Assembly (NCBI RefSeq): GCF_004920405.1
Contig: NZ_RFLV01000001.1
Coordinates: 124,001-188,000, forward strand
Length of the DNA: 64,000 nucleotides
DNA from: Pseudomonas leptonychotis
GTDB taxonomy: Bacteria > Pseudomonadota > Gammaproteobacteria > Pseudomonadales > Pseudomonadaceae
Reading direction: 5' to 3'
Shown here: positions 47,226 to 64,000 of the stretch, piece by piece
How the letters are laid out: every line of letters begins with the position of its first letter
Numbering within the stretch: the stretch's first letter is position 1
Position numbers and translations under genes: made by a program
The notes under the pieces: model-generated
Told to the model about the DNA's origin: nothing
What the model saw: only the letters and a program-made list of their open reading frames with translations
Databases searched by the model: none

Positions 47226-47273
47226 GTTTCACCTCGCCAATATAATGACTAAAAACACCAAGCAGGTATTAAT

Positions 47274-47291
47274 AGTCAAAAGCCGTGCCAA
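47274..47291 (-). promoter_or_regulatory. Sigma-54-like promoter of fliD
   Basis: On the minus strand, TTGGCACGGCTTTTGACT fits TGGCACG-N4-TTGC except that the -12 GC is GA. It is about 50 bases before the fliD ATG, as expected for a class II gene. The change at -12 makes activity less sure. Confidence 0.6.
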
Positions 47292-47299
47292 CCCTAAGG

Positions 47300-47692: not shown

Positions 47693-47716
47693 AACTATGT
47701 CCTCAGAATGAGGGAA

Positions 47717-47745
47717 CGGGGAGAAGAGACAAGCCCTTCCCCCCG
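47717..47745 (-). other. Hairpin in the fliC-flaG spacer
   Basis: CGGGGGGAAG and CTTCTCCCCG pair over 10 positions (one G-U) around a 9-base loop on the minus strand, right after fliC. There is no T-run, so it may protect the fliC mRNA 3' end while allowing some read-through to flaG (inference). Confidence 0.5.
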
Positions 47746-47764
47746 CAGTCTAGCGCTTTTACCC

Positions 47765-49249
47765 TTAGCCGAGCAGGCTGAGTACAGCCTGTGGCAACTG
47801 GTTAGCCTGGGCCAAGATCGCAGTACCGGCCTGCTGCAGGATCTGATTCTTGGTCAGTTCCGATGTTTCGGCAGCAAAGTCAGTGTCGCGAATCCGGCTA
47901 CGAGCAGCCGAGGAGTTCTCGGAGATGTTCTGCAGGTTCGAGATGGTGTTCTCGAAACGGTTCTGCACAGCACCGAGCTGGGCCCGCTGGCTATCAATGT
48001 TAGAGATCGCCCCGTTGATGATACCCAGGGCATCCTGTGCGCCTGTAGCCGTACTGATATCAATGGTGTTGACCGAATTCAGCTCACTGAACCCGTCAGC
48101 CCCCAGACCACCAGTCAAGCCATTCACGCTGAAGGCATCTGCAGCCTCAAGCTGAACCTGACCATCGGCACGCGCACCACCACCAACAACGATTGTCGCA
48201 GCAGTACCAACATCAGTCGCACCATCGAAGCTCTTGGTCTGCAGAGTTGCACCACCGGAACCGGCGTAGCTGCTGATACCGATCGCATCACCGCGGGAGC
48301 TAACCAGTTCAATGGTGTCGCCCTTGGAAACAGCCGAGATACCTGTTTTACCAGTTTCACGGTTGATTGCATCTGCCAGGGAAGACAGGTTTGTAATGTC
48401 ATCCACGACTGCTGATACAGAGGTAGCGTCTGTCGAAAGCGACTTGCTGGTCAGACCAGAAAGATTGAAAGAGACAGTGCCCGACGCAGTGATGCCGCCT
48501 AACGTCGCAACGGTACGAGCATTAGCTGTCACACCGGTTTCATCACTCTTCGAGTTGACTGCACGCGCTACTTCACTGGCAGAACCGCTGGCCGCACCAG
48601 AGATCGCGACATTGCCATCAGACAGCTTGGAGTTGATGTTGAAGGAAGCGCTGCTGTAAGCACTGCCCGAAGTGGCGCTGAATGCTGCACCGGAAGCAGT
48701 GGCGTTAGCACCAGCACTGTCACTGGTGAAACGGTTGATGCCGATACGATCAGTAGCGGCGGAACCGATCGAAACACTGATAGTTTCGTAAGCGTTAGCA
48801 CCGACCTGGAAAGCTTGAGACCCAAAGCTGCCGTCAAGAATCTTACGACCACCGAAGCTGGTGGTTTCAGAAATACGGTTCAGCTCTTGCTGCAACTGCG
48901 ACACTTCGCCTTGCAGCGCTGCACGTTCAGTAGCACCGTTCGAGCCGTTAGCCGACTGCAGGGCCAAGTCACGGATACGTTGCAGTATACCGGTCGACTG
49001 CTGCAAAGCACCTTCAGCGGTTTGCGCCAAAGAAATACCATCGTTGGAGTTACGAGTCGCAACGTTAAGACCGTTGATCTGGCTGGTCAGACGGTTGGAG
49101 ATCTGCAAGCCCGCGGCGTCATCCTTGGCACTGTTGATGCGGTAGCCTGTGGACAGGCGCTGCAACGAGGTATCCAAGCCTTTGGACGAGCTGTTGAGGT
49201 TACGCTGAGTGTTGAGTGACGCTACGTTTGTGTTGACTGTAAGGGCCAT
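47765..49249 (-). CDS. fliC: Flagellin
   Basis: This 494-residue filament subunit has the conserved N-terminus [21 protein letters not shown]1 segment [20 protein letters not shown] and a C-terminus ending PQAVLSLLG. The middle (about residues 150-400) is variable and rich in Ser/Thr/Ala, suited for O-glycosylation. GGAGG precedes the ATG by about 8 bases. The glycan genes start directly upstream, so modification of this flagellin is likely. Confidence 0.97.
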
Positions 49250-49349
49250 GGTGTTTGCCTCCAAAGGACCGTGCTACTGAGATTGTCTGAGCCTGCGAGC
49301 TTCGGGCCTGCTTTGCTCAGACGCCCCATAAAGTTCGCATTCGATCTTT

Positions 49350-49540: not shown

Positions 49541-52500
49541 TCAATCGGGCAACCATGAGGCGCGCCACGCTTCAAGATTTGCACCTTCAAGCATCCAGCC
49601 TTCCTGCACTTGCCTGCGCAGCTCGTCTCCCGCCCTGGCACTCGCATCCGGGTCGCTGACGTGCATACGGATTGCATCGACCCAATCCTTAAACCGGTTC
49701 TTCACCCGGGTTACCGGCAGTGCACCCTGATAACAGACGAGATCACTGCAAACGACCGGGAAGCCGCAGGCGCCGTACTCGAGCAGGCGCAAATTACTTT
49801 TGCACTCATTAAATAAGTTCTGCTCAACTGGAGCCAACGCGAGATCAAGATCCAGGCTCGCCAAGGCTGCCGGGTAAAGATCAATACCGACCCCAGCATG
49901 CACCTCATGGACATAGGGCCGGATTTTATCCGGACACATCCCCATAAAAACCCATTCGACTTCGCCAGCCAACTCCTTGACCACATCAGCAATCAGCTCA
50001 AGGTCGCCGGTATGGCTAACGCCACCCGCCCAGCCAACTCGTGGTTTGGCGCCTCGCCGGCGCTTAGCCGACAAGCCGCTCCACCAATCCACCGGCAAAC
50101 GGTTCTCAATCACCCGAATGTCGCCATGCAACCCAGCAAAGGCCTCGGCCAATGGCGCTGTAGATACCGTGAAGCGGTCAACAAAGCTCAGTCCCTTGCG
50201 CAGCGACTTGAGTATGTCCTTGGGCATTTGTGCACGATGCACACTCTTGAGCGGCAGGTTGGGCAGGTAATCATCCAGCTCATACACAGTGAACGCGCGC
50301 GAGAATTTCTGTATACGGCGCATCGCATCCAAACGCTGATCGCCAATCTGACGTTGCAGCACGATTACGTCCGGATCAAAACGCTCCAGATCCGGCACCT
50401 GCAAGAGACCGATGGACATCATGCCGTCCACTATTCCCGCCTCTTTGAGGGCTGAGAATGGCTTAATGACACGGTAGTTACCGCAACCAAATGGGTCAGC
50501 TGGATGAGCCAGCACGACCGGCAGCGGACGCCAGCTTAGTGGCCGCCAAGTCAGCCCGACGTCAGCTTCCAGGTCGAAGCCCCGGCCGCTCAGAGCAAGG
50601 TTGCGGTTATAGGCAGGGTCACGTGCTATCGCCGCTAAGTGACGCTCGTAAAGAGCGTCCTGCTCAGCCACTACGGGCTCTCGGTATACATGCTCATGCA
50701 TCAGCACGGCATGGGCAGCCCATACGGTCAGATAGCCCGCCGCTCGCACACGCAGGCAGAAATCGACATCGCGATATGCGCTCAGCGCAGCGTCCAGACC
50801 ACCAAGCTGACGGTATAGGTCGGCGCGCACCATTAAACAGGCATCACTGACCGCGCTGTAATTCTGATCGACCTGTAGACGCTGCAGATACCCTGCGCTG
50901 TCCATCGGCTCACCCGCAAAGGCCCGACCGGCAGGGCCGCGCAGCCCTAACAGCAGACCGGCCTGATCAATGCGCCCATCACTGCTAAGCAGTTTGCCGC
51001 CAACAACACCCACCTCAGGCCGCTGTGCATGATTAAGCAGCTCGCCCAACCAGCTCTCACTGACCGCCACCGACTCGCAAGAAAGCAGCAGTAGATAGTC
51101 ACCTTGCGCCTCAGCAGCTGCACGGTTCTGAACCTGAGCAAGATCACCGCAAGACACTACGCGAAGCCTGGCATCAGCCAATGCGGCAATTCCCTGCAGC
51201 CAAGCTTGAGTCTCTACATCGGCCCCATCATGGGCTCCGAGCAGAATTTCGTAATGCGGGTAAGCAGTCTTCTCGAGCAGGCTGTCCAGACAGCGCTGGA
51301 CGCACGCCAAAGGCGCATCAACAGCGATCAAAATCGATACCAGCGGGGTTGCAGAATGACCGTAGTCGATACGGTAACGCGCAGGCAGCCCGGGGACTAC
51401 ACGGGCTTGATAACCGCGCTGCGCCAGATGGCGTTCAATCACCCGGCGCTCATCCAAATTATCACCAAGCGCTGGGGCGTCGGTAATCAACAACGGCTCA
51501 CCAACATGCCCCAACCCGAGCAAACCCTCTGCTTCAATTAAGCGGGTGAGAAGATCAAACTCCAGCGCATCGGCGAACTGCGCATCGAAGCCGCCAGCAG
51601 CCAGAAAGACATCACGACGGAACAGCCAGTGGCGCGCCATAACCAGCGGGAAGCTGAGCAGCAAATCAAGATTGAAGCCAGGCAGAAACGCGCCACCTAA
51701 ACTGCCATCGGGCAGGCGCTGCAGCTGATCACCATAAATGGCACGACAGTCTGGGTTGGCCGTCAATTCAAGGCCGGCGACCATTAGACCGCTCGGCGTG
51801 AACTCATCACCCGCACGGGCCAGCATAAACCACGTGAAATCACTGGCACTGATCGCCCGGTTCAATTGCTCAGCAATTTCCCCGCCCGCCAGCTGGATAA
51901 AGTGCAACTTATCGGCTGCAGATGTAGCCGGTACAGTGCTGCTGGTTAGAACCACAATCTTCAAAGTGGCATAGAGACAACGCTCACCACTCAGACTCTT
52001 AAGGGTTCGCATCAATAACGACGAATCCGTCTCGGTATCGAGCACAACAATGCCGATCAGCGGTCCGCCATCATGCTCTAGCAAGTAGTGGTTGATCAGT
52101 TTGTTTTCTGCTTCCGTTGGCAGGCGTTCGGCGAGCCATCGCTGCAGGGCCGGCTCTTCCGTGCGCGCCTCAGCCAGGACACCCAAGCTCTGCAGCATGT
52201 CTTCCCGACCATGCTTCAGCGCCTCACTGGCCGAGCCGAGATAACGCCGATACAAGGTTTGATAGAGTTCCGGGAAGTTTTTCCGCTCCCGCCCCAGCAT
52301 ATGATCGCTGCCAGCCCCTTGGTCGCGGGTGTGCACCTCACTGGTAACCACTGGCACATGCACAAACGGGTAGCGTGTGGCCAGGCGCAGGAGCATGTCC
52401 CAGTCTTCGAATGCAGCCAGTCCCGTATCGAATTCCCCGACCTCATCCAGCATGTCACGAGGGTGCGCCCAGGTATTGACCGGGATGTAGTTCTGAACAA

Positions 52501-55132
52501 ACAGGCGATCACGGTCAAAAGCGTTGTGCTCAAACGGCCTACTGCGGCCCTGCTCGATTCGCTGCCCATTCTCCAGGCGCTCACTGACGTACTCCACACC
52601 GGTGTACACCACGCTGCGTGGATGCGCCGCAAAAGCCTCAGCCAAGACTGCCAAATGGTTGGGCAGGTAAATATCATCGTCATCTAAGTAGACGACGTAG
52701 CGTCCTCTCGCCTGTTTCAAGCCAGCATTACGTGCAGCAGACAAACCGCGATTAGAGCCCTGACGAAGGTAGGTGATCGGGAACTCATAACCGGCCAAGA
52801 GCGACTCGACAGGGTCGCCATTATCGTTGACCAGTATCACTTCGAAGTCGCGCAGGCTCTGCTGTTCAACGCTGCCTAAAGCATCCTTGAGTAGGTCAGG
52901 ACGATTATACGTGGTGAGAATGATCGAGAACTGGCACTCCAGCTCTGCACGCTCAGCACTGTCCAGCAGCGCGTTACGGATCGCCTCGATGCGGGCCTGC
53001 AAGGGCACTCGCACCTCAGGCGTATAGGCTTCGACACGCTGTCTATAAAGCTGCCAGATGGGTTGCGCAGCAGCGATCATGCGATTACGAGTTGCCGCAT
53101 CAGCAAGGCTTATTTCAAGTATCTCGGTATGCTCGCGCAGAGGCCGATCACTGCCATAGAAGCTTTTTGAAATCTGCCCTTCGTGAACCCGATAGCCCAC
53201 AGTGGGTTGACGTAAGAAAACGAAATCTGGAGCAACGCGGCCAAGACGAATCCACAACTCCCAGTCACCAGCCAGCATGTCGTGACGATGAATACCGCCT
53301 TCAGGTAGAGCCACTAAATGCAGAGCGCTGCGCCGCAACATAACGGCCGAAGGCGTGATGTAGTTGTCGAAACTGAGCAGGTCAATGACCTCGTCACGCC
53401 CCCCGCAATACGACTGAGGCCGGTGCCCAGGGTGCTCAGCATACTGAGTGCGCGCGCCCTGCTCATCGATCCAGTAACACTGCGTATAGCCCAATGCGGC
53501 CTGCGGATTAGCATCAAGCGCTTCAACTAGAGAGCTCAAGTGGCCTGGATAAAGAATATCGTCTGAGCCCAAAACAACGATATAACGCCCACTACCGGCG
53601 GCCACACACTTGTTGTAATTGCCGGTCATGCCGAGGTTCTGCGCGTTGACCTCGTATTGCAGGCGTGGCTCGTCAGCGTAGCCCTGCAAAACCGCCAGAC
53701 TGTTATCTTTCGAGCAGTCGTCATAGACCAGCACTTCGACTCGAACACCCTCTTGAGACAGGATCGAATCAATAGTCTGACCAATAAACGCGGCGTTGTT
53801 ATAGGACATCACGGCCACAGTGACATCGACCTGGGTTGCTGGCGCAGCAAGACCTGGTGATAGCGAAGCCAGCACGCCAGGTTTACGCCGATTGGCCAGC
53901 TCGCCATGCAGCGCCTCAGCGCTCAATGGCTGCTCGGGAAGCGCTTGCGAGAGCTCTTCCCGGCGTACGGCATCTTGGGCCAGCCAGTGCCGCAGCTCGC
54001 TCACCGGAAATTCAACACTCCAGTGAAATACGACCGTATGGGTGCCAGGTAAACCCTGTACTGGGTGGTAAACCAGACGCACGCCCACAGCAGCTGCCAG
54101 GGTGTGGAAGAACCAATACCACATCTGCGGATTGTCCTGGATCAGCATGACCAGGGTTGCCCCTTGGGGCATCCACAGCACATTGGCGGCAGCGGCTCCC
54201 GACCCCAGGACAGCTAGGTTGCAGGACGCCAGACTCCGAACTTGCGTAGAAAAGTCGCTGATTTCCGGCTGGAAAGCCTGAAAACCATCGGCTTGCAACT
54301 GACGAATCACCTCCTGCTGATTGACGATAGTGCGACCATTACCACCCGGCGGGCGAATTAGATAAGCCTTGCTCTGGCCGTCAATTGCTTCACAGCGAGA
54401 CTTCACATAGCAGGCCATCCAGGCGATTGCCGTCGGATAAATATGATACTCATCGCCCCGGTAAACGTAGCCGGCACGCGGCTCCCAGATATCGGCGGTA
54501 TCGGAGAAGTAATGAAGAACCGATACGTCGCAAGCGCGCCCAAACTCAACACAGACAGTTTTCTCCCGCGGCCAGAAGATCGCGAGAGACTCCATGATCG
54601 AGCTAGGTAAACCGGCCTCTACCAATAGAACAGTGTCATCCGGCAACACCGCCTGATTGATCCAGTAAAAACGCCCAAGTTTTTCGCTCAGCCAGTGGGC
54701 ATAGTTGCCGTTTTCCCAACCAAAAAAAGCGATCGCATTAGCTACGCGTAAGGGCTCACCCTTGCCACAGTAAAACTGGCATTCGCCACTGTCGTTGATG
54801 CGCAGCCCGTGCTTCTCATACCAAGCGTTATTGATTCGGCCGAGGTTGTCATAAACACCGTCGCAGATGTACTCACCATGAGCGATATCGCCAATACCCG
54901 CCATACCGGCTACCAGGCGCACATCGTGAAAACGCCCACGGTACTGCGCCAAGGTAATCTGCGTTGCCTGACGTACGCTTTGCTCCAACGAGAAGTTCAC
55001 CATTTCCAGTGGTGGAGGTGACCATGAGCTAGCCGTGGCCAGTTCCATCAGCTCGATGCAGCCCGCAGCGCTGCGAACAGGAACCACCTTGGCGCTGACG
55101 GCTGTATCTCGCAGATGACTCCACTGGGGCAT
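49541..55132 (-). CDS. Giant multi-domain glycosyltransferase (flagellin glycosylation)
   Basis: This 1863-residue cytosolic protein seems to fuse five modules. Residues about 130-390 look like a GT61/DUF563 transferase (WENGNYAHWLSEKL, VLGSGAAAANVLWMP). About 435-660 is a GT2 domain (VAVMSYNNAAFIGQT, GSDD). About 733-985 is a second GT2 (IILTTYNRPDLLKDAL, YLDDDD). About 1050-1530 is GT2-like sequence, probably two degenerate copies. About 1538-1863 is a GT4/GT1-like fold (HPADPFGCGNYRVI, LRLLEYGACGFPVVCS). It occupies the place of fgtA in P. aeruginosa and would glycosylate flagellin. GGAG precedes the ATG by about 9 bases. Confidence 0.88.
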   Translation of the reverse strand: MPQWSHLRDTAVSAKVVPVRSAAGCIELMELATASSWSPPPLEMVNFSLEQSVRQATQITLAQYRGRFHDVRLVAGMAGIGDIAHGEYICDGVYDNLGRINNAWYEKHGLRINDSGECQFYCGKGEPLRVANAIAFFGWENGNYAHWLSEKLGRFYWINQAVLPDDTVLLVEAGLPSSIMESLAIFWPREKTVCVEFGRACDVSVLHYFSDTADIWEPRAGYVYRGDEYHIYPTAIAWMACYVKSRCEAIDGQSKAYLIRPPGGNGRTIVNQQEVIRQLQADGFQAFQPEISDFSTQVRSLASCNLAVLGSGAAAANVLWMPQGATLVMLIQDNPQMWYWFFHTLAAAVGVRLVYHPVQGLPGTHTVVFHWSVEFPVSELRHWLAQDAVRREELSQALPEQPLSAEALHGELANRRKPGVLASLSPGLAAPATQVDVTVAVMSYNNAAFIGQTIDSILSQEGVRVEVLVYDDCSKDNSLAVLQGYADEPRLQYEVNAQNLGMTGNYNKCVAAGSGRYIVVLGSDDILYPGHLSSLVEALDANPQAALGYTQCYWIDEQGARTQYAEHPGHRPQSYCGGRDEVIDLLSFDNYITPSAVMLRRSALHLVALPEGGIHRHDMLAGDWELWIRLGRVAPDFVFLRQPTVGYRVHEGQISKSFYGSDRPLREHTEILEISLADAATRNRMIAAAQPIWQLYRQRVEAYTPEVRVPLQARIEAIRNALLDSAERAELECQFSIILTTYNRPDLLKDALGSVEQQSLRDFEVILVNDNGDPVESLLAGYEFPITYLRQGSNRGLSAARNAGLKQARGRYVVYLDDDDIYLPNHLAVLAEAFAAHPRSVVYTGVEYVSERLENGQRIEQGRSRPFEHNAFDRDRLFVQNYIPVNTWAHPRDMLDEVGEFDTGLAAFEDWDMLLRLATRYPFVHVPVVTSEVHTRDQGAGSDHMLGRERKNFPELYQTLYRRYLGSASEALKHGREDMLQSLGVLAEARTEEPALQRWLAERLPTEAENKLINHYLLEHDGGPLIGIVVLDTETDSSLLMRTLKSLSGERCLYATLKIVVLTSSTVPATSAADKLHFIQLAGGEIAEQLNRAISASDFTWFMLARAGDEFTPSGLMVAGLELTANPDCRAIYGDQLQRLPDGSLGGAFLPGFNLDLLLSFPLVMARHWLFRRDVFLAAGGFDAQFADALEFDLLTRLIEAEGLLGLGHVGEPLLITDAPALGDNLDERRVIERHLAQRGYQARVVPGLPARYRIDYGHSATPLVSILIAVDAPLACVQRCLDSLLEKTAYPHYEILLGAHDGADVETQAWLQGIAALADARLRVVSCGDLAQVQNRAAAEAQGDYLLLLSCESVAVSESWLGELLNHAQRPEVGVVGGKLLSSDGRIDQAGLLLGLRGPAGRAFAGEPMDSAGYLQRLQVDQNYSAVSDACLMVRADLYRQLGGLDAALSAYRDVDFCLRVRAAGYLTVWAAHAVLMHEHVYREPVVAEQDALYERHLAAIARDPAYNRNLALSGRGFDLEADVGLTWRPLSWRPLPVVLAHPADPFGCGNYRVIKPFSALKEAGIVDGMMSIGLLQVPDLERFDPDVIVLQRQIGDQRLDAMRRIQKFSRAFTVYELDDYLPNLPLKSVHRAQMPKDILKSLRKGLSFVDRFTVSTAPLAEAFAGLHGDIRVIENRLPVDWWSGLSAKRRRGAKPRVGWAGGVSHTGDLELIADVVKELAGEVEWVFMGMCPDKIRPYVHEVHAGVGIDLYPAALASLDLDLALAPVEQNLFNECKSNLRLLEYGACGFPVVCSDLVCYQGALPVTRVKNRFKDWVDAIRMHVSDPDASARAGDELRRQVQEGWMLEGANLEAWRASWLPD

Positions 55133-55202
55133 ACAGAAAACTCCGATTGAACCAATTGAATAGAAAGAAATAATGCCGAAGGTACAGACACAGCGCGCTT
55201 AG

Positions 55203-55622
55203 TTAGCCGAGCGGTTTGCCAAGGGCAGCCTGACTGAACTGATCATAATCACGGAAATAGTCGTCTTCGCTGAAGTGTTCAGACGCCAGCACCATGCACA
55301 CAGACCCGCTGGAGAAATTGTCGATTTCCCGCCAGATCATTGGCGGGATATAGAGACCGTAGTAGGAGCGATTGAGGTGGTACTTGAATTTGGTGCGACC
55401 GTCGTCGAGCAAAATATCGAAGCTACCCGACATGGCGATCAGCAACTGGTGCAAGCCCTTGTGCGCATGCCCGCCTCGTTGGGAGCCACCTGGTACATCG
55501 TAGAGGTAGTAAACACGCTTAATATCAAAGGGAATGTGGTTACCACCCTCGATAAACGTGAGGTTACCGCGACGATCCTCAATGATCGGTAGGTCGATGA
55601 TCTTGCAGTGCTGAAGAGACAT
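55203..55622 (-). CDS. fdtA: dTDP-6-deoxy-hexose 3,4-ketoisomerase (FdtA/QdtA type)
   Basis: This 139-residue cupin (RGGHAHKGLHQLLIAMSGS, FSSGSVCMVLASEHF, DYFRDYDQF) is typical of WxcM-like sugar ketoisomerases. It moves the keto group of dTDP-4-keto-6-deoxyglucose from C4 to C3. FdtA and QdtA differ in C4 stereochemistry and I cannot tell which this is. The start ATG at 55622 (MSLQHCKII) has GGAGCG upstream. It belongs with the aminotransferase and acetyltransferase genes upstream. Confidence 0.85.
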   Translation of the reverse strand: MSLQHCKIIDLPIIEDRRGNLTFIEGGNHIPFDIKRVYYLYDVPGGSQRGGHAHKGLHQLLIAMSGSFDILLDDGRTKFKYHLNRSYYGLYIPPMIWREIDNFSSGSVCMVLASEHFSEDDYFRDYDQFSQAALGKPLG

Positions 55623-55769
55623 ATAAGCGCTCCAAATACGCTGGTAGAACCCATTCTGCCTACTCTCGATCATCTTTAGAGCGGTAGGGCTTGAGCAGCC
55701 GTAGTGTCAAAAAAACATGACCACCACGATTTCTATGTTCTATAGCAAAATTTGAACCACCCATCCATG

Positions 55770-56879
55770 TCACGCACGGAAAGCATTGCATGCGTCGATG
55801 GTTCGATCGATCCAAGTATCCGCAAGCCCAGGATAGAGAGGCAGACTGAGTACTTCGCCAGCCAACTGGCTGGACAACGGCAAGTTTAGGTTGGCGAAAC
55901 CGTGGTAAGCCTGCTGCTTATGAATTGGAATAGGGTAGTGAATGAGGCTCGGCACACCGCTGCGTTCCAAGTGAGCCTGGAGCGCTTCACGCTGCTCGCA
56001 GCGAATCACAAACTGATGCCAGACATGACTGCTCGCAACTGCCGGCGCTTGCGGCAAACGCAGGTGTGGATTACAGATCTCGGCGAGGTAGCGTGTGGCT
56101 ATCTTTCGGCGTGCGTATGCATCACTTTCCATGCGCAGCAGTTTCACTCGTAGAAATGCAGCCTGAAGCTCATCCAACCGCGAGTTGACACCCTGAACCT
56201 CGTGCACGTACTTGCGGCTAGAGCCATAGCTGCGCAGCTTACGCACCTGCTCGGCAAGCGCATCGTCGTGCGTGGTCAAAGCTCCGGCATCGCCGAGCGC
56301 GCCAATATTTTTTACCGGAAAAAAACTGAAACCCGCCGCGTCGCCAAGCGAGCCGGCTGGCCGGCCCTGAGCGTCAAGAGCACCGTGGGCTTGGGCCGCA
56401 TCTTCGATAAGCAAAAGATCATAACGATCAGCGAGTGCCCGCAAACTCGCCATATCGGCGAGCTGACCATAGAGGTGCACGGCGATCACGGCTTTGGATC
56501 GCGCACCGATAGCCGCTTCAACAGCGGCAGAATCTATGTTGAACGTTACGCTATCAGGCTCCACCAGCACTGGAGTCAACCCCGCCTCGCTAACAGCCAA
56601 GGCAGTGGCAATAAAGCTGTTGTCCGGCAGAATGACTTCGTCGCCCTCAACCAAACGCCCCAACTGGATATAACCGCGCAGGATCAGGGTTAACGCATCA
56701 AGGCCGTTACCGACGCCAATGGCGTGTTGCACGCCGCACGCCACAGCGTACTCTGCCTCAAACGCAGAAACCTCCGCCCCCAGAACATACCAACCAGATC
56801 GGAGTACGCGTTGAAAAGCCTCGGTCAACGCGGTTTCATCACGCAGATTAAGAGCAGCAAGATCAAGAAAAGGAAACAT
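55770..56879 (-). CDS. fdtB: dTDP-3-keto-sugar aminotransferase (FdtB/QdtB type)
   Basis: A DegT/DnrJ/EryC1/StrS-family PLP enzyme of 369 residues, starting MFPFLDLAALN. The active-site Lys is in FFPVKNIGALGDAGAL, with GNGLDALTLILRG and IEDAAQAHGA segments. With the ketoisomerase next door it would make a dTDP-3-amino-3,6-dideoxyhexose using glutamate. The ATG at 56879 lies 1 base after the acetyltransferase stop; an ATG three codons upstream (56888) would overlap it by 8 bases. Confidence 0.85.
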   Translation of the reverse strand: MFPFLDLAALNLRDETALTEAFQRVLRSGWYVLGAEVSAFEAEYAVACGVQHAIGVGNGLDALTLILRGYIQLGRLVEGDEVILPDNSFIATALAVSEAGLTPVLVEPDSVTFNIDSAAVEAAIGARSKAVIAVHLYGQLADMASLRALADRYDLLLIEDAAQAHGALDAQGRPAGSLGDAAGFSFFPVKNIGALGDAGALTTHDDALAEQVRKLRSYGSSRKYVHEVQGVNSRLDELQAAFLRVKLLRMESDAYARRKIATRYLAEICNPHLRLPQAPAVASSHVWHQFVIRCEQREALQAHLERSGVPSLIHYPIPIHKQQAYHGFANLNLPLSSQLAGEVLSLPLYPGLADTWIDRTIDACNAFRA

Positions 56880-56880
56880 G

Positions 56881-57345
56881 TTACTCATCCAGATAGCGCA
56901 CGATACGTGCAGGATTACCTACAACAAGTGCGCACGGTGGGACGTCACGAGTGACGACAGCGCCAGCACCGACCATAGCGCCGCTACCAATAGTAAGACC
57001 CGGCAAAATGACGGCAGCAGCGCCGATCGATGCGCCTTGTTCAATCACAGTCTGGGCAAAGCTATCGGGGTAATGCTTGGAGCGCGGTAAGCGATCATTG
57101 GTAAACGTGGCATTAGGGCCGATAAACACATCGTCAGCAACACGCAAACCATCCCACAGATAGACCCCACACTTCACCGTCACCCGATCACCCAGAACTA
57201 CATCGTTCTCGATGAAACAGTGTGCATTTATATTGCAGTCCCGCCCTATACGCGCCCGCTGCAAAATCACCACGTACTGCCAAACCGAAGTGCCTTCGCC
57301 GATCGACTGGCTTTGAACGTCCGCAGATGGATGAATGGATGCCAT
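56881..57345 (-). CDS. fdtC: dTDP-3-amino-sugar N-acetyltransferase (FdtC/QdtC type)
   Basis: This 154-residue left-handed beta-helix acyltransferase has hexapeptide repeats ([55 protein letters not shown]). It likely acetylates the 3-amino group to give dTDP-Fuc3NAc or dTDP-Qui3NAc. The start ATG at 57345 (MASIHPS) has GAGG upstream. It is first in the operon fdtC-fdtB-fdtA-glycosyltransferase and is divergent from the gene at 57471. Confidence 0.85.
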
Positions 57346-57470
57346 ATATCGCCTCACTTACTGAATGGATGAGGGTAGCAAGCCTGATTTGCAGCGTCAC
57401 GGAAGAACACCTTAACGGCCAGCGGATTTCCAGTAACATGAGCCAACAGTAATTGCCAGGATTGGACGGC

Positions 57471-58535
57471 ATGGCGAGCGAACTCGATCGTATTGGTTTT
57501 TTGATTCATAACCCTGAGATGTTTAATCACTACCACGCTGTTTGGCAGCACCTGCCAGCGGGCAGTGTGGAAATCGCGGTCACCGGCAAAACCCAGCAAG
57601 ATATTGATACGGTCATAGCAGCCAGCGAACGGCGGAATTTACCTTGGCGTGATGCCCGTGAGCTGCTGGCACGCAAGGAGCGCTACAACACACTGGTCTC
57701 CAGCTTTCCACAACACTATCTGCGCGGCGCCGACTCCCCTTACCTGCCCAAATCTATCGGCCGCTGCAACCTGAGGTTCATGTATGCCAATGGCAAGGCA
57801 GGCTGGAACTTTCAACCGTGGAATCAGCAGTACGACAGCATCCTGTGTTTTGGCCCCTACCAGGCCGAACATCTGGAGTTCTGCCGGAACACGCTAAAAG
57901 TCCAGATGGGTTACCCGCGCTTTGACCGCTTCTTCAACCAACCACTCGATCGCATTGCGAGCCTGACCGCGCTCAAGCTCGATCCGTCGCGCAAGACGGT
58001 AGTGTGGCTACCTACCTGGAGCACGCTGAGCTCAATCGAGCTGTTCGCAGTCGCCATTGCCCGACTGCAAACGCACTACAACGTGATCGTCAAGCCACAC
58101 CCCATCACCCTAACCGACGAGCCTGCACGCATGCGCGAGCTCGAGCGTTTCAACTGTGTGATTCGTGAGCACATCGATAACGTCGAGTTGTTCCAGCTGG
58201 CCGACTTCCTGCTCTGTGACTACGGTGGCTCAGCTTTCGGCGGTATCTATACCGACCGTAATGTACTGCTTCTAGACCTGCCTAACGCCGAGAGCGACCC
58301 GTTAATGGGTGAAGACTCCTCCGACATCTGGTTACGCAAGTACATGCCACACCTCACTGCGCAGCAGGCCGGAAGGCTAGAGGAGATGCTCGATGACGAA
58401 GCCTTATGGACGGCCCAGCGCAGCGTGCGCGCCAGCCTCAGTCAGTACTACTTCGCCCCATTTTATGGTTACGCCGGCCAGGTTGCTGCCCTGGCTATTG
58501 CCAACGCTGCACGCTCACTAGCAGGAAGAGCCTAA
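57471..58535 (+). CDS. CDP-glycerol glycerophosphotransferase-like protein
   Basis: This 354-residue protein has a C-terminal segment typical of the TagB/TagF family: VKPHPITLTDEPARM, then LADFLLCDYGGSAFGGIY. Family members use a CDP-linked alcohol phosphate as donor and have a GT-B fold. Since the locus also seems to make a CDP-linked phosphoramidate, this protein is a candidate transferase for that group or for another phosphate-linked decoration (inference). ATG 57471 (MASELDRIGFLIHNPE) is preferred over the TTG at 57453. Confidence 0.75.
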   Translation: MASELDRIGFLIHNPEMFNHYHAVWQHLPAGSVEIAVTGKTQQDIDTVIAASERRNLPWRDARELLARKERYNTLVSSFPQHYLRGADSPYLPKSIGRCNLRFMYANGKAGWNFQPWNQQYDSILCFGPYQAEHLEFCRNTLKVQMGYPRFDRFFNQPLDRIASLTALKLDPSRKTVVWLPTWSTLSSIELFAVAIARLQTHYNVIVKPHPITLTDEPARMRELERFNCVIREHIDNVELFQLADFLLCDYGGSAFGGIYTDRNVLLLDLPNAESDPLMGEDSSDIWLRKYMPHLTAQQAGRLEEMLDDEALWTAQRSVRASLSQYYFAPFYGYAGQVAALAIANAARSLAGRA

Positions 58536-59053
58536 TGGTCATCTGGCTGATCGGCCTATCGGGCTCCGGTAAAACCACCCTAGGCAAAGAAATAGTCAGT
58601 CAGTGGAAAACCAGCGCGCCCAACACTGTCTTGGTTGACGGTGACGAGGTGCGGCGAATATTTCGCCAAGACACCCAAGCAGCCGATTACAGCATGGCCG
58701 GGCGGCGGCTCAATGCCGAGCGTATTTTCGAGCTTTGCGCCTGGCTCGACGCCCAGAATATCAATGTGGTGTGCAGCATCTTGTCGATCTTCCCCGACCT
58801 GCGCGCACGCAACCGGGAACAGTTCCAACGTTATTTTGAGGTGTACCTTAACCCGCCGATGCAGACGCTATTGGAACGCGACACCAAAGGCCTTTATCGC
58901 AAGGCCCTGGCCGGCGAAATGAACGATATGGTGGGCGTGGATATTGCCTTTCCAGCGCCAACGGCTGCTGACTTGGAAATTGACACCAGCCAGCCAGGCG
59001 ACGTCAGCGCACTGGCACGTCATATTATTGAGCAGGCACAAGAATCGGCATGA
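58535..59053 (+). CDS. CysC-like kinase, candidate CDP-amidate 3'-kinase (Cj1415-like)
   Basis: This 172-residue protein of the adenylylsulfate kinase family has Walker A GLSGSGKTTLG (residues 7-17), LVDGDEVRRIFRQ, AGRRLNAERI and KGLYRKALAGEMNDMVGVD. It is a stand-alone gene in a glycan locus with no sulfate-activation partner. Similar kinases in the C. jejuni capsule locus (Cj1415) phosphorylate CDP-amidate. The start overlaps the upstream stop (TAATG) with GGAAGAG upstream. Adenylylsulfate kinase activity is the alternative. Confidence 0.72.
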   Translation: MVIWLIGLSGSGKTTLGKEIVSQWKTSAPNTVLVDGDEVRRIFRQDTQAADYSMAGRRLNAERIFELCAWLDAQNINVVCSILSIFPDLRARNREQFQRYFEVYLNPPMQTLLERDTKGLYRKALAGEMNDMVGVDIAFPAPTAADLEIDTSQPGDVSALARHIIEQAQESA

Positions 59054-59625
59054 GCAGCGTCAGCTATCCCTACAGCCAAGGCGACCGCCTGGAAGAGCGC
59101 AACACCTATTTCTATAGCGAGTATCACGGTGCAGCATTCTTTCCTGCTTGGCTCGCCAGCCGGCAGGCAGCACTGACCTGCCTCCCAGAGCCGCAGCCCC
59201 TCGGTTTACCCCTCCCCGACCTTGCCATAACGAATGGCTTCCACACTGCAGCACTGCTCGCTGGTTTGCTTACTGAGGCACCCGACAATCTGCAGAACAG
59301 ACGCACTGCCGAGCGCCTGCTGCAACGTTTCGAAGTCAGCAAACGTCTCTATCGCAGCTACAACAGCGACTTCAGAGCCGTGCTCGACAGTGGATATGAA
59401 GAGCTGGAGCTTTACCTGCAGTTCGCCTCGCTATGCCTGCACTACGCCGCACAGCCAAATTCGCTGCCCTTCCTCAATGGCATGCTGAAGAGCCTGGACA
59501 CCTTAATATCCATCAAGGAACGCCTGTGCCCGGAACAAAGCGCGCATTTGGCGTGGCTAATCCACGCCGAACATAAGTGGGTGACCGACGTTGCTGCAGC
59601 CGTGGCGGTAGAAATAACTCAATGA
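59050..59625 (+). CDS. Unrecognised 191-residue protein in glycan locus
   Basis: I do not recognise the family. The protein has no signal peptide or transmembrane helix, and looks mostly helical. It has Tyr-rich stretches (SYPYSQGDRLEERNTYFYSEY) and a His-containing C-terminus (HAEHKWVTDVAAAVA). Its ATG overlaps the stop of the kinase gene by 4 bases and its own stop overlaps the next start (ATGA), so it is part of a tightly coupled four-gene operon. It may assist the phosphoramidate or glycan enzymes. Confidence 0.85.
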   Translation: MSSVSYPYSQGDRLEERNTYFYSEYHGAAFFPAWLASRQAALTCLPEPQPLGLPLPDLAITNGFHTAALLAGLLTEAPDNLQNRRTAERLLQRFEVSKRLYRSYNSDFRAVLDSGYEELELYLQFASLCLHYAAQPNSLPFLNGMLKSLDTLISIKERLCPEQSAHLAWLIHAEHKWVTDVAAAVAVEITQ

Positions 59626-60341
59626 CATACCTAAACGATGTAGTGCTAATTGCGGCCCACAGCGCACGCAGCCAAGCCTATGTGCAAACGCTTGCCGCGC
59701 ATGAGCTGATGCCGTCCCATGCCCTCGTGCTTGGCGAGGCACCGCCCAGTGAAGCCGGACCACCCGCCCCGGCAAAGATCGTGTCGGGAGTTCTGCTCCC
59801 GGACCTGAGCATTCCCCTGAGCAAAACCCTGGCCGACACCGGCGTGCCCAGCACTTACCTCGCGACCCGTGACATCAATGCAACAGAGGTTCTTGAGGCC
59901 GTACGTGACCTTGCCCCGCGCCTGGTGATTTTTTCCGGCTATGGTGGCCACATCGTAAAGGCCCCACTAATCGAACTGGGTATCCCACTGCTGCACATAC
60001 ACAGCGGCTGGCTTCCAGAGTATCGGGGCAGTACTACGGTCTACTACAGCCTGCTGGAGGAACGCACCTGTGCCGCCAGCGCAATACTCCTCGACACCCA
60101 CATTGATACGGGCCCAGTACTGGCGCGAAAACACTATCCGGCACCGCCCATGGGTACCGACATAGACCGACGTTATGACACGGCGATTCGCGCCGACCTG
60201 CTGTTGCAGGTACTACGTCGCTATCAGGCCAGCGGCAAACTGGATGTGCTCATGCACCAGCAGCGGGAGGACGGCAATACCTATTACGTCATCCATCCGC
60301 TACTCAAGCATTTGGCTTTGCTAAGCCTGCCCGAGAACTGA
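59622..60341 (+). CDS. Formyltransferase-fold protein, active-site variant
   Basis: This 239-residue protein has the formyltransferase core: HIHSGWLPEYRGSTTVYY and, further on, LLDTHIDTGPVLA. In formyltransferases the catalytic trio is Asn-x-His and Asp. Here His and Asp are kept, but the Asn position is His (LLHIHSG). N-formylation of an amino sugar with formyl-THF, or a changed reaction, is possible. ATG 59622 overlaps the previous stop by 4 bases. Last gene of the plus-strand operon. Confidence 0.78.
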   Translation: MTYLNDVVLIAAHSARSQAYVQTLAAHELMPSHALVLGEAPPSEAGPPAPAKIVSGVLLPDLSIPLSKTLADTGVPSTYLATRDINATEVLEAVRDLAPRLVIFSGYGGHIVKAPLIELGIPLLHIHSGWLPEYRGSTTVYYSLLEERTCAASAILLDTHIDTGPVLARKHYPAPPMGTDIDRRYDTAIRADLLLQVLRRYQASGKLDVLMHQQREDGNTYYVIHPLLKHLALLSLPEN

Positions 60342-60374
60342 TGCAGCAGCAAAGACGCCCACCTCGATAGCGGC

Positions 60375-61577
60375 TCAGGTAAAGGGTTGGCCTTGATAGC
60401 TATAGTGCTTGCGAGCCTCATGGAGGTTCATCCGCCGCTGGACAGCAGGCAACACCTGAGAGCGGCGACGCAACACGACAAACAATTTATCGACATCCTG
60501 ACTGGGCACGAATGCCTTGGTCATCTTGCTGTCTACCAGCTCAAAGTAGCGCTCCATAATGTCGAACTTATGATCGAGATCGCCATCGTCCCCTGCCGTC
60601 CCAGCACCTGGACCGAACACATTGTGGCTTTCGAAAAACAACCAGCCATCTTCATTAGTAAGGTGCCAAAGCTTGGCCACAAAGCTTTCAAACTCGACAG
60701 ACAGATTACCGTCGATCGTGCAGTGATTGGCGAAGGAAAGCACAACGTCATAGCGTTTGAGAGGCGCCCAACTGCTGAAGTCTGCAACCTCAAAGTGAAC
60801 GTTGCGCTGGTCAAGCGCCTCTGCGGTGATGCGACCAATCTCGACCAGAAAGGGGTTGTACTCCACAGCATCAACTGAGCCCGCATGACGGGCCAGCTCG
60901 ATAGCCATAAAGCCGTTGTTACAACCGATTTCCAAGACACTCATGGCGGGTTTCAGCCACGAGGTGAAGCCATAGGCCTGCAAACGTACTTCGGTCGGTT
61001 TGACACCGGCCAGACCGATGCGGGCATAACCTTGATAGGCATAGCCCCCGCAGTAGGGTTTCCCCCAGTGTTTGTTCTGCATGTCCAATAAACTAAATAC
61101 TCGATCGAGCAGTTCGGTGCGTTGCGGTGCCACCAGCTGCGTCACCACCAGATCACGCCACGTGTAGTAACGCGCCAAGAACCCGAACGATGAATCACCG
61201 ACAGGGTTGGCACTACTCAGATAGCTCAGCAGCTGATGCATCAGAGTATCTGGCTGATCCGCATCCCCCTGCTCTAATACCCATTGCGCGCTGCTGGTTT
61301 CTACCTGAGCCATAGTGGCGGGCACCCATAGCTGCTCACGCAGACCTTTCACAAGCTGCTGCATGTTTGGATGCTGGGCACAGACATCAGGCCAGAGCGC
61401 CTCCAAATAAACGGGACTCAGCAATACCCTCATGCATAACTGCTCCCATAAAGCGTCCGCCTCTTGAGCACTTATCGCCTGTAAATACTCGCGGGCCTTT
61501 TGCTCCAGCGTGTCAGCGGGACGAGGAAAGCGGCTCAGAATCGTAAGAACTGTTTGCCGGGGGAAACACAAAGGCAT
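60375..61577 (-). CDS. SAM-dependent methyltransferase
   Basis: This 400-residue protein has the SAM-binding motif MSVLEIGCNNGFMAIELARH at about residue 210, followed by VDAVEYNPFLVEIG and YDVVLSFANHCTI. The N-terminal 200 residues are helical and unlike common methyltransferases. It is transcribed after the cytidylyltransferase, 17 bases away, so it may methylate the phosphoramidate group or a sugar (inference). GGAGCG precedes the ATG. Confidence 0.85.
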   Translation of the reverse strand: MPLCFPRQTVLTILSRFPRPADTLEQKAREYLQAISAQEADALWEQLCMRVLLSPVYLEALWPDVCAQHPNMQQLVKGLREQLWVPATMAQVETSSAQWVLEQGDADQPDTLMHQLLSYLSSANPVGDSSFGFLARYYTWRDLVVTQLVAPQRTELLDRVFSLLDMQNKHWGKPYCGGYAYQGYARIGLAGVKPTEVRLQAYGFTSWLKPAMSVLEIGCNNGFMAIELARHAGSVDAVEYNPFLVEIGRITAEALDQRNVHFEVADFSSWAPLKRYDVVLSFANHCTIDGNLSVEFESFVAKLWHLTNEDGWLFFESHNVFGPGAGTAGDDGDLDHKFDIMERYFELVDSKMTKAFVPSQDVDKLFVVLRRRSQVLPAVQRRMNLHEARKHYSYQGQPFT

Positions 61578-61594
61578 GGTGAGCGCTCCAAAGC

Positions 61595-62335
61595 TTAATG
61601 AGTCAGGTCAGCCACAGAAAATAGCCGGTGATAGAGCGCCAAATCATCTGCCGCATCCACTTCGCCCCATACTCCTTGAACGGGCGACACCGCAATTTGC
61701 CAATCGGCCTGCAAGCCAAGACGTAACAGCGTGGTCATATCCAACCGATCCACCTCTGCTTCACTGTAACCGGCCAACAGCTCGCGCACTTGCGCCCAGC
61801 CCGTTGGGGTGAACTTCAGCAGGCCCATATACTGCCCTTCGATCTCGGCTACATTGCTGCAGCGCTCACCGATAGTAGCCAAATAGCCGGCGCTATCCAG
61901 ACGAAAGCTTTCGGCGTCAGCAAGAGGATCGTCAAAGCGTTGAGACCACAGCGCGTGCCAGTGTGGGTCGTAAGCTATCGCCAGATCTTGCTTGGCAGCC
62001 GCTAACCCAGAAACGGTTGCCGCACTGTAAAAAATGTCGCTGTAACTGACGATGCAATCTTCCGCCGCCAGCCAGCTATCGGCGGCCAATAATGTCCGCA
62101 CCATATTGCTCTGCTGCCAGCGCGGGTTTTCAAAATAAGTTAACGGCTCAACGAAGCACTCAGCGCGGTAACCACGCACCACAGCCAGTTGCTCGATACC
62201 TGCCCCACGCAACGCCGTTAGCTGCCAATCCAGCAAGCGTCGACCATGCAGACGAGCAAAGCATTTGGGTTCGAGGGTAGTCAATTCGCCCATACGGCTG
62301 CCGCGGCCTGCCGCGAGAATGATGGCACGTGTCAT
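61595..62335 (-). CDS. Sugar-1-P-type nucleotidyltransferase, candidate CTP:phosphoglutamine cytidylyltransferase (Cj1416-like)
   Basis: This 246-residue NTP-transferase-fold protein has the signature IILAAGRGSRMGELT near the N-terminus and LEPKCFARLHGRRLLDW, then ASP-type metal residue in VSYSDIFYSAA. It lies directly between a class I amidotransferase-like gene and a methyltransferase, the arrangement known for C. jejuni Cj1416-Cj1418. The proposed reaction is CTP plus L-glutamine phosphate giving CDP-L-glutamine. ATG 62335 with AAGGAATGAG upstream; a phosphocholine cytidylyltransferase is the main alternative. Confidence 0.75.
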   Translation of the reverse strand: MTRAIILAAGRGSRMGELTTLEPKCFARLHGRRLLDWQLTALRGAGIEQLAVVRGYRAECFVEPLTYFENPRWQQSNMVRTLLAADSWLAAEDCIVSYSDIFYSAATVSGLAAAKQDLAIAYDPHWHALWSQRFDDPLADAESFRLDSAGYLATIGERCSNVAEIEGQYMGLLKFTPTGWAQVRELLAGYSEAEVDRLDMTTLLRLGLQADWQIAVSPVQGVWGEVDAADDLALYHRLFSVADLTH

Positions 62336-62342
62336 TAACAAC

Positions 62343-62945
62343 TCATTCCTTATTCAGACATTGCGCAAGAAGTGTTTTGTCCAGCTCGGCAAAAGGCATC
62401 TCTCGCTCCGGGTGCCACATTATTCCCATGATTGGCAGATGTTCGTGGGTGAAAGCCTCGACCACACCGTCATCACTCCGCGCCAGCACCTGCAGGGGTG
62501 CGCGGAGCTCTCGGCACCCCCACTGGTGATAGCTATTGACCGAAAAAGTACGGCCATTAATCGACACCTGATGACGGTTACCTACATGTCCTGTCACGCG
62601 TTCTAGGGGAATGCCGAACGCATCCAGCACCAGTTGCGCGCCACGGCATAGCGCGAAAAGCGGAATCTGCTCAGCCAGCGCACGGGCCAATAAAGCACGC
62701 TCCACGGCATCACGCTCGGGAGCATCTCCGCCGTAGTTAGCCAAATCATTCCCGCCAGAAAGAATCACAGCACAGGGACGCAGATGCGCCCATAGCGCCG
62801 CTAATCTCTCGAGGTTATTAGGTACAGGCACAGGCAGCAGGTCACTCGCAGCCAGCCAATCCAACAGGCGCTGATCGAGCGCATCGCGGCGCTCGCCTCG
62901 ATCAGGCAAAACGTCGACCCGCTGACTGACCAGCACCGTCTTCAC
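62343..62945 (-). CDS. Class I glutamine-amidotransferase-like hydrolase, candidate gamma-glutamyl-CDP-amidate hydrolase (Cj1417-like)
   Basis: This 200-residue protein has the nucleophile elbow FALCRGAQLVLD (Cys near residue 99), VILSGGNDLANYGG and the His-Glu pair in IMWHPEREMP. It belongs to the peptidase C26/PuuD-like group. By locus it would cleave gamma-glutamyl-CDP-amidate to CDP-amidate and glutamate. The start is GTG at 62945, which overlaps the upstream stop (GTGA), so it is coupled to the PEP-utilising gene. Gamma-glutamyl-GABA hydrolase is the alternative. Confidence 0.75.
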   Translation of the reverse strand: MKTVLVSQRVDVLPDRGERRDALDQRLLDWLAASDLLPVPVPNNLERLAALWAHLRPCAVILSGGNDLANYGGDAPERDAVERALLARALAEQIPLFALCRGAQLVLDAFGIPLERVTGHVGNRHQVSINGRTFSVNSYHQWGCRELRAPLQVLARSDDGVVEAFTHEHLPIMGIMWHPEREMPFAELDKTLLAQCLNKE

Positions 62946-64000
62946 CGCAGCACCTCAACTCGACGATTCGCACAATCGATGCTGAGCATCTGCGCTGCCG
63001 CCCACTTCCGATAGAGCACCTCACCGGCGCCGATCACCGCCGGCAAACCCAGTTCGTTGGCGCGAATAGCCATATGTGAATTGGCTCCACCGTACGCCGT
63101 GATAAAGCCCGCTATGCGGTGAGAAAAAATCCAATCGAATCCAGGGTCGGCACTGGGAATAACCACAATGGCCCCTTGCAACCGATCACGCTGCTGGTAG
63201 TCCACTACGGCAGCCGTGATCTGACGCTGAGTAATAAAATTTGGCTCGGTCTGGGGCATGTGGAAACAGAGTGCATCCTCCGCCCGAGTAATCAGCGGCG
63301 GTAGAACAATCTGGCAAGTCTCGGCATAGCGCCGGCGCCCTTCCTCGATACTGGCCGCAATTAACTCTTTAGGGTCGGCGCTAGCGGCATGCAGCTCTTT
63401 GATAACTTGGATATTGGCGTAAGACATGTCATCAGCACTAAAGCCCAGGTCTTGGCCCAATTCGCGAAATAGCGTGAGCGCATCCGACAGGTTGCGGGTG
63501 AAGACGAACTTGGCGTACTCACGCAACTCGATGCCTGCTTGAAGAAAATCGAACAAGCCCACCACATCATGAGACAACCCATGCTCGCTTAGCAGCCGGC
63601 TGATCTCACGCATTTGCGCCAATGACAGGGCAAAACGCGCCTCATCGGGGCGAGGCTCAACAGCCATGCGCTGCCAGTCAAAATACAAGTCAGGGGCTTC
63701 GTCATAGCGCGGCGATAGGATGTCGTAGGTTCCGGGACGCAAGTGCCCGTAACGAGCGAGAAAGGTCGTGCGATTGAGCTGCTCAAAATCCTGTGTCATC
63801 TGCCCGCTGACAGTGGACAAACCACTGAGAAAAGCATCGTACTCGACTTGATTGAGCACACCGACAGTGACCAGCGAGCGCAGCAATTGCACCGCAATGA
63901 ATCCGGCGCGTGCCAAGCCTGCAAACGGCAGAGTGCCGTAGCGGCGACAATCTTCCAGCAACCAATAGATGCGGGTGACCGGGTCGGTGTCCGCACCCAG
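62942..64000 (-). CDS. PEP-synthase-like enzyme, candidate L-glutamine kinase (Cj1418-like), N-terminus beyond window
   Basis: About 352 C-terminal residues are visible; the frame stays open to the right edge. The last 90 residues are the swivelling phosphohistidine domain of PEP-utilising enzymes, with IAGFITAYGGANSHMAIRA (phospho-His) and ELGLPAVIGAGE. The visible middle part (YGHLRPGTYDILSPRY) is unlike PEP synthase or PPDK. In Cj1418-type enzymes, an ATP-grasp N-domain charges the His, which then phosphorylates L-glutamine. The first half must be read beyond the edge to confirm this. Confidence 0.75.
   Translation of the reverse strand: MGADTDPVTRIYWLLEDCRRYGTLPFAGLARAGFIAVQLLRSLVTVGVLNQVEYDAFLSGLSTVSGQMTQDFEQLNRTTFLARYGHLRPGTYDILSPRYDEAPDLYFDWQRMAVEPRPDEARFALSLAQMREISRLLSEHGLSHDVVGLFDFLQAGIELREYAKFVFTRNLSDALTLFRELGQDLGFSADDMSYANIQVIKELHAASADPKELIAASIEEGRRRYAETCQIVLPPLITRAEDALCFHMPQTEPNFITQRQITAAVVDYQQRDRLQGAIVVIPSADPGFDWIFSHRIAGFITAYGGANSHMAIRANELGLPAVIGAGEVLYRKWAAAQMLSIDCANRRVEVLR

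Follow-up and report, generated by a model that had tools for sequence, protein, structure and literature searches.

Probable Campylobacter-type phosphoramidate genes beside flagellin in Pseudomonas leptonychotis, with a candidate transferase and a recurring orphan/formyltransferase-like pair

In a stretch of 64,000 nucleotides (nt) from the 4.39 Mb genome of Pseudomonas leptonychotis (G000:C1:124001-188000, hereafter the window), homologues of the four Campylobacter jejuni enzymes Cj1415 to Cj1418 lie together in a cassette placed between flgL and fliC. It is probable that this locus encodes a Campylobacter-type route to an activated phosphoramidate, joined to a TagF-like candidate for its transfer and to a tail made up of an orphan protein and a formyltransferase-like (Fmt-like) protein. 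The cassette had been proposed in an earlier sequence-only reading of the window, and all genes named there, including those for the kinase, hydrolase, nucleoside triphosphate (NTP)-transferase, CysC-like kinase and methyltransferase, were recovered at the same positions.

The genes form two convergent rows. On the minus strand the order is kinase, hydrolase, NTP-transferase, methyltransferase: the C-terminal part of an L-glutamine kinase homologue (Cj1418 type, 62942..64000), a gamma-glutamyl-CDP-amidate (CDP, cytidine diphosphate) hydrolase homologue (Cj1417 type, 62343..62945), a homologue of the cytidine triphosphate (CTP):phosphoglutamine cytidylyltransferase (Cj1416 type, NTP_transf_3, 61595..62341) and a methyltransferase of 400 amino acids (aa) dependent on S-adenosylmethionine (SAM), which stands outside the Campylobacter cassette family (60375..61577). 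The GTGA coupling of hydrolase to kinase, already claimed from the sequence, is a 4-nt overlap of the hydrolase start with the kinase stop; the gap from hydrolase to NTP-transferase is 1-7 nt, depending on the start chosen, and that from NTP-transferase to methyltransferase 17 nt. On the plus strand a Glyphos_transf protein (TagF/CDP-glycerol phosphotransferase-like, 57453..58535), the CDP-amidate kinase homologue (Cj1415 type, stand-alone and CysC-like, 58535..59053), the 191-aa orphan protein (59050..59625) and its partner of the formyltransferase fold (59622..60341) are encoded so closely that every start overlaps the stop before it (TAATG, ATGA and ATGA).

By analogy with the C. jejuni enzymes, the kinase would phosphorylate the side-chain amide of L-glutamine, the cytidylyltransferase would convert the phosphoglutamine to gamma-glutamyl-CDP-amidate, the hydrolase would remove glutamate to leave CDP-amidate, and the CysC-like kinase would add a 3'-phosphate to the latter. 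The TagF-like protein would most likely take the phosphoramidate off its CDP donor and attach it to a sugar of the flagellin glycan that the adjoining genes produce, and the orphan and Fmt-like proteins probably process or cap the phosphoramidate or the adjacent sugar amine.

All four core proteins resemble their C. jejuni counterparts over most of their length. Best similarities were 62% for the kinase, 53% for the hydrolase, 55% for the NTP-transferase and 62% for the CysC-like kinase, and against complete C. jejuni genes similarity was 52-63% over 82-99% of the length of the window proteins. In the available part of PMC3907429, orthologues of Cj1416-1418 are recognised at >35% similarity over >75% of length, and the window proteins lie above both values. 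Alignment with the C. jejuni cassette proteins, which had been suggested as a check, returned four nearly full-length matches, each above the paralogues of the own genome. The kinase-hydrolase-cytidylyltransferase order and the tight spacing are common to both organisms, and for each of the four enzymes it is the C. jejuni pathway that supplies the best family and a match over nearly the whole length. Unlike there, the Pseudomonas set lies in a flagellar glycan locus and is divided between two convergent rows, and the window has the orphan/Fmt-like pair and the TagF-like transferase but no methyltransferase of the Campylobacter type. In C. jejuni (L027, L059) the kinase, hydrolase and NTP-transferase genes stand together with methyltransferase frames, and a CysC-like kinase lies nearby.

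For the kinase, the search past the right edge of the window proposed earlier was rewarded with the complete gene, a 790-aa frame (L003:8942-11314) of which the window holds the C-terminal part. The first GTG of the frame lies 23 nt past flgL; an in-frame ATG further inside is the likelier start. The C-terminal part contains the phospho-His swivel motif GGANSHMAIR (GGANSHMAIRANE, His747). In the homologue search 8000 candidates were scored and 6545 kept at E 1e-10 or better; GGxNSHMAIR was retained in 119 of 120 kinase homologues among the matches listed, and one source labels some of the homologues glutamine kinase. The protein scored 980 bits against NF004508 (cut-off 501) and so belongs to this family, to which the C. 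jejuni kinase gave 1127 bits. In BLASTP it was 42.7% identical over 783 aa to the protein of C. jejuni 414 and 42.0% over 779 aa to that of isolate_S4, whereas the best patch shared with PpsA of the own genome was 63 aa. The own paralogues were identified by NCBIfam as a phosphoenolpyruvate (PEP) synthase (1298 bits) and a PtsP-type protein (844 bits).

In the hydrolase we located Cys100, His178 and Glu180, which we take to be the class I amidotransferase triad. Identity was 35.0% over 183 aa to C. jejuni 414 and 35.7% over 196 aa to isolate_S4, and at best 29% over 152 aa to the PuuD-like proteins of the own genome; these scored 188-211 bits against the PuuD model NF008471, below its cut-off of 266, and the hydrolase 56 bits. 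The NTP-transferase was 34.7% identical over 251 aa to C. jejuni 414 (168 bits in BLASTP) and 33.7% over 199 aa to isolate_S4, where the gene is cut. Solved relatives, LicC included, reached about 30 bits at best in phmmer, LicC itself giving 29 bits over 60 aa. Judged from these pairwise scores, the NTP-transferase appears nearer to the C. jejuni protein than to LicC-type enzymes.

The CysC-like kinase matched C. jejuni 414 with 32.9% identity over 155 aa and isolate_S4 with 40.6% over 143 aa, versus 26-28% for CysNC of the own genome. It scored 156 bits against PRK05541 (cut-off 127; C. jejuni CysC 278 bits). Against TIGR00455 it gave 109 bits and missed the cut-off of 138.7, which the own CysNC passes with 143.9 bits; the C. 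jejuni CysC is narrowly under this cut-off too (136.3 bits). The own CysNC is a fused protein (NCBIfam 1004 bits) separate from the cassette CysC, and provides for sulfate activation. We built a tree from 31 cassette CysCs, including those of the window and C. jejuni, and 30 gammaproteobacterial adenosine 5'-phosphosulfate (APS) kinases. One branch of length 3.3 with support 100/100 parted the cassette CysCs from the APS kinases, with the caveat that the bootstrap had not fully settled and that a few rows lie on long branches. The protein used for BLASTP and the tree began at 58529, not 58535, and so had two extra N-terminal residues.

These comparisons bear on the alternative that the four proteins are ordinary relatives of PEP synthase, PuuD, phosphocholine cytidylyltransferase and APS kinase recruited for unrelated reactions. 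Public records do call such cassettes PEP-utilizing enzyme, gamma-glutamyl-GABA hydrolase, phosphocholine cytidylyltransferase and adenylyl-sulfate kinase, and a Cupriavidus plasmid carries a kinase homologue without a cassette partner among the listed features of its incomplete gene table. We nevertheless consider this alternative very improbable in view of the homology to the C. jejuni set, the family assignments, the CysC tree and the recurring co-localisation. Placement of the four proteins among those common families had been set beforehand as grounds for abandoning the four-enzyme reading, and the comparisons placed them elsewhere. As plain identities, PEP synthase, PuuD, LicC and APS kinase were ruled out by the C. 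jejuni homology, the comparison with own paralogues and the CysC tree.

The co-localisation recurs widely. Among the genomes sampled, a kinase of family NF004508 is present in 19 of 199 from the genus, in 10 of 369 from the class and in none of 14 controls. NF045546 gave weak matches in 198 of the 199 genus genomes and in all 14 controls; a hydrolase at 82-126 bits was found in 20 of the 199, the next genome giving 40 bits, and 19 of these 20 are kinase genomes. Each of the 19 other Pseudomonas loci was examined over 20 kb, which gave 18 kinases, 19 hydrolases, 19 NTP-transferases and 15 CysCs. A degenerate, AT-rich kinase-motif pattern brought up 36 loci from the genome collection, of which at most 8 kb each were examined and some of which end within the cassette; all have the kinase, 33 the hydrolase, 30 the NTP-transferase and 13 CysC. 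They include C. jejuni (L027, L059), C. bilis, C. volucris, Helicobacter, Pelagibacteraceae and Lachnospiraceae, and cassettes were also found in several other phyla. Kinase homologues covering at least 80% of the protein's length occurred in 14 plasmid records, three of which were looked at. On Azospirillum lipoferum p6 the record annotates the genes around the kinase as adenylyl-sulfate kinase, methyltransferase, PEP-utilizing enzyme, gamma-glutamyl-GABA hydrolase and phosphocholine cytidylyltransferase; with the window proteins, the kinase shares 57% identity, the hydrolase 50% and the NTP-transferase 55%. Vibrio alfacsensis pYa108 combines kinase, hydrolase and cytidylyltransferase with a gene annotated as CDP-glycerol glycerophosphotransferase, and no CysC was present in 18 kb.

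A few of the loci stand apart. In the Cupriavidus taiwanensis plasmid record the kinase homologue (L132:6965-9328, 35% identity) lies near a thiamine pyrophosphate enzyme and a transaminase and perhaps serves another P-N natural product; because it has no listed partners, presence of a kinase does not by itself prove the pathway. A kinase homologue also occurs in one phage record that lacks annotation. Locus L086 (G019), from the one hydrolase genome that is not a kinase genome, has hydrolase and NTP-transferase after a ComM-like gene; since neither kinase nor CysC nor methyltransferase turned up in 20 kb, it looks like a remnant, perhaps a decaying cassette. Eight contigs titled Pelagibacteraceae (L025, L035, L037, L041, L043, L047, L053, L054) carry kinase and hydrolase, seven of them with a BLAST match to the NTP-transferase too, which is surprising for reduced genomes.

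In C. jejuni the transferases are Cj1421 and Cj1422, according to the available parts of PMC3907429 and PMC9561416. In the window the TagF-like gene appears to be the best candidate for a phosphoramidate transferase, judging from chemistry, gene overlap and recurrence. Its product matched PF04464 with 33 bits (cut-off 22) in residues 125-269; no solved structure matched it at 0.1. TagF-like relatives stand beside 13 other cassettes in the 56 loci examined (55 places, L076 being counted), and PF04464 was matched by all five relatives run through Pfam (L031, L041, L049, L077, L080). A more distant family (HHalign 86%) stands beside nine further Pseudomonas cassettes; the two members run through Pfam (L084, L092) gave no family. 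As in the CDP-glycerol glycerophosphotransferases of PF04464, transfer would be of the same kind, from a CDP donor to a hydroxyl, and a TagF-type attack on the outer phosphorus of the CDP donor would be the chemistry needed. The differences are that the match of the window protein is weak and that CDP-amidate, or else its 3'-phosphate, would serve as donor. Several of the 13 TagF-like cassettes had no CysC in the DNA examined (L031, L041 and L077, for example), and in such cassettes the donor may be CDP-amidate itself. A TagF-like gene without CysC in the DNA examined was seen in L031, L041, L054, L077 and L131. The idea that 3'-phospho-CDP-amidate is used by sulfotransferase-like enzymes in the manner of 3'-phosphoadenosine 5'-phosphosulfate has as its sole basis the neighbours in L030 and L050 and two genes with such a name on the Azospirillum plasmid, none of which is matched by the family that adjoins CysC in Pseudomonas.

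The orphan/Fmt-like pair borders cassettes in three phyla, and is fused in two species. The orphan, to which neither a Pfam nor an NCBIfam family could be assigned, was present in 13 of 13 cassettes having the Fmt-like protein. It has a gene of its own in the window and in ten further loci; its hidden Markov model (HMM) gave 176-254 bits in seven of them and weaker scores in L046 (83 bits), L056 (52 bits) and L045 (26 bits), for which HHalign gave 99, 97 and 91%. In two other Pseudomonas species it forms the N-terminal part of proteins of 454 and 458 aa (L077:4321-5685, L079:4337-5713; HHalign 95%), which were scored as Fmt-like at >50 bits (71 and 59). Among solved structures the best match of the orphan had E 0.46.

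The Fmt-like protein passed PF00551 (31.5 bits, cut-off 26.1) and lacks the NxHxS motif, having HIHSG in its place, whereas the four ordinary PF00551 proteins of the own genome have NxHxS. The HxHxG positions are presumably those of the PF00551 catalytic motif. The His and Gly of HxHxG were present in 118 of 120 Fmt-like homologues listed of the 610 found, the other two having no motif match, and in 32 aligned sequences His125, His127, Gly129, the Asp162-x-Gly loop and GSTTxYY were invariant; the two fusions retain HxHxG without GSTT. With the PF00551 formyltransferases the protein shares the fold, as judged by sequence, together with the second His and the Asp-x-Gly loop; it differs in having His and Gly for the Asn and Ser of NxHxS, and in its orphan partner, which is fused to it in two cassettes.

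Within the genus the Fmt-like protein was found in 6 of 199 genomes, in all six near the kinase (hypergeometric probability 3.4e-7, uncorrected for relatedness, with a search profile to which three or more of the six, among them that of the window, had contributed sequences). In the class it was found in 4 of 369 genomes, two of these being weak partial matches; in three of the four, one weak match among them, the kinase lies no more than about 3 kb away, and the fourth has no kinase. Among 55 kinase rows, a Campylobacter-type methyltransferase was near 23, an Fmt-like protein near 13 and both near none, with a naive probability of 2.4e-4 and no more than 8 kb covered for each of the 36 motif-found loci; a tree-aware test of this exclusion, with 6 independent pairs, was not significant (median p 0.5). 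A quick kinase tree shows 7 changes of the Fmt label; L076 (same place as L059) and L086 (no kinase) were left out of it, and in its table the labels of the window were set by hand and then checked. The closest switch between Fmt-like protein and methyltransferase is L080, a relative in the same flgL slot that has the methyltransferase.

The pair might form a second, undescribed tailoring branch in the place of O-methylation, perhaps one in which the activated phosphoramidate is N- or O-formylated to give a surface group not known from any organism, here on flagellin, but this must be regarded as speculative and rather unlikely. Another possibility, which deserves serious attention even though we lean against it, is that the pair formylates only an amino sugar such as Fuc3N or Qui3N made with FdtA and DegT and has nothing to do with the phosphoramidate. 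Among solved structures the Fmt-like protein comes nearest to Met-tRNA and sugar N-formyltransferases, with 44 bits at best, FdtA and DegT genes adjoin here, and L045 has a DegT gene. However, all six Fmt-like genomes have the kinase nearby, compared with 19 of 199 overall (at least three of the six being in the profile); outside the genus the pair borders cassettes without an FdtA match in the DNA examined (L046, L048, L049, L056); and HxHxG in 118 of the 120 listed homologues differs from NxHxS of the four own PF00551 proteins.

Cj1419 and Cj1420 are the methyltransferases of the C. jejuni pathway. The suggestion in the sequence-only reading that the phosphoramidate here is perhaps O-methylated found little support, as the window has no methyltransferase of the Campylobacter type and the adjacent one is of a different family, and O-methylation of the product is doubtful. 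A model of three C. jejuni sequences gave no match at E 1e-3 in the window or L003; the same model found the Azospirillum cassette member at 192 bits. The window methyltransferase shares with the Campylobacter-type ones only a SAM-binding stretch of 37-50 aa, and of the 19 other Pseudomonas cassettes two (L078, L081) contain it as well; given this limited similarity and rare recurrence it was rejected as evidence of O-methylation. Methylation by another enzyme is possible, since other methyltransferases adjoin two other Fmt-type cassettes (L045, L048).

Several observations weigh against the phosphoramidate reading or parts of it. NF004508 carries only the description 'hypothetical protein' and PRK05541 is described as 'adenylyl-sulfate kinase'; because neither description names the pathway, the enzyme names rest on C. 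jejuni homology. The CysC-like kinase also passed Pfam APS_kinase (102 bits), and no family model is dedicated to the cytidylyltransferase. With 121 bits to NF045546 the hydrolase lies under the curated cut-off of 250, which none of the 199 genus genomes passed and for which the C. jejuni protein gave 325 bits; NF045546 is still its best family. The C. jejuni reference loci are from strains 414 and isolate_S4, not NCTC 11168, and the 414 cassette lies beside ispG- and flgH-like genes (L076:2424-9739) with no kps recognised in 20 kb. The transferase is assigned by association, and the 'CDP-glycerol transferase' of the Vibrio plasmid matches the TagF-like protein only weakly (25 bits). Finally, flg genes stand beside only 4 of 20 Pseudomonas cassettes, that of the window included.

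As far as its available text goes, the review PMC9561416 calls the glutamine kinase C. jejuni-specific, and in the accessible part of PMC6429109 the modification is said to be Campylobacter-only. Titles and abstract openings of open-licence PMC papers yielded nothing on this cassette in Pseudomonas or on the orphan/Fmt-like pair. We see here a known pathway in a new setting and with a new tail, its activities, target and product being putative. Taken with the surveys described above, the locus indicates that such genes occur in many phyla, and on some plasmids, under four misleading names. The locus offers a defined genetic system beside flagellin for seeking biological P-N bonds, and the conserved pair may define a new end product. 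Flagellotropic phages are of interest here because the capsular group of C. jejuni is a phage receptor (available parts of PMC9561416 and PMC3907429).

From its position only, the product would be placed on flagellin. The flgL gene and further flg genes, named from the sequence by eye, follow directly past the right window edge, and fliD and fliC (flagellin; 45765..49264, minus strand) lie on the left; between them and the cassette, at 49541..57357 on the minus strand, are genes for an 1863-aa multidomain glycosyltransferase, an FdtA-type protein, a DegT aminotransferase and a hexapeptide acyltransferase. Because of these left-hand genes the neighbourhood looks like a flagellin glycosylation island. 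The phosphoramidate might instead be made for lipopolysaccharide (LPS), O-antigen or another surface glycan, the flagellar position merely reflecting a shared glycosylation island. In 16 of the 20 Pseudomonas genomes no flgI-flgL match was present within 20 kb around the cassette, the setting in L084 includes GGDEF-EAL, MATE, chemoreceptor and ComM-like genes, and phosphoramidate without O-methyl is reported from LPS of Xanthomonas and Shewanella (PMC3907429, available part). However, the gene row of the window begins just past flgL, the island ends at fliC-fliD, and the flgL slot is common to four species, three of them beside P. leptonychotis (L078, L080, L081), so that we regard a destination other than flagellin as somewhat unlikely.

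Two known systems are close to the proposed flagellin product. The b-type flagellin glycan of P. aeruginosa PAO1 contains rhamnose and a phosphate-containing group of 209 Da and is likewise a Pseudomonas flagellin glycan with a phosphorus-containing cap, whereas no such cassette is named for PAO1 in the available text (PMC3958885). The other is the LPS of Xanthomonas campestris and Shewanella, for which phosphoramidate without O-methyl is reported and which places the group outside Campylobacter; this is a chemical report on LPS, and the part of PMC3907429 available names no genes. As for the 1863-aa protein beside fliC (49541-55132), it combines a GT61-like domain with several GT2 domains and is likely an enzyme of flagellin glycan assembly.

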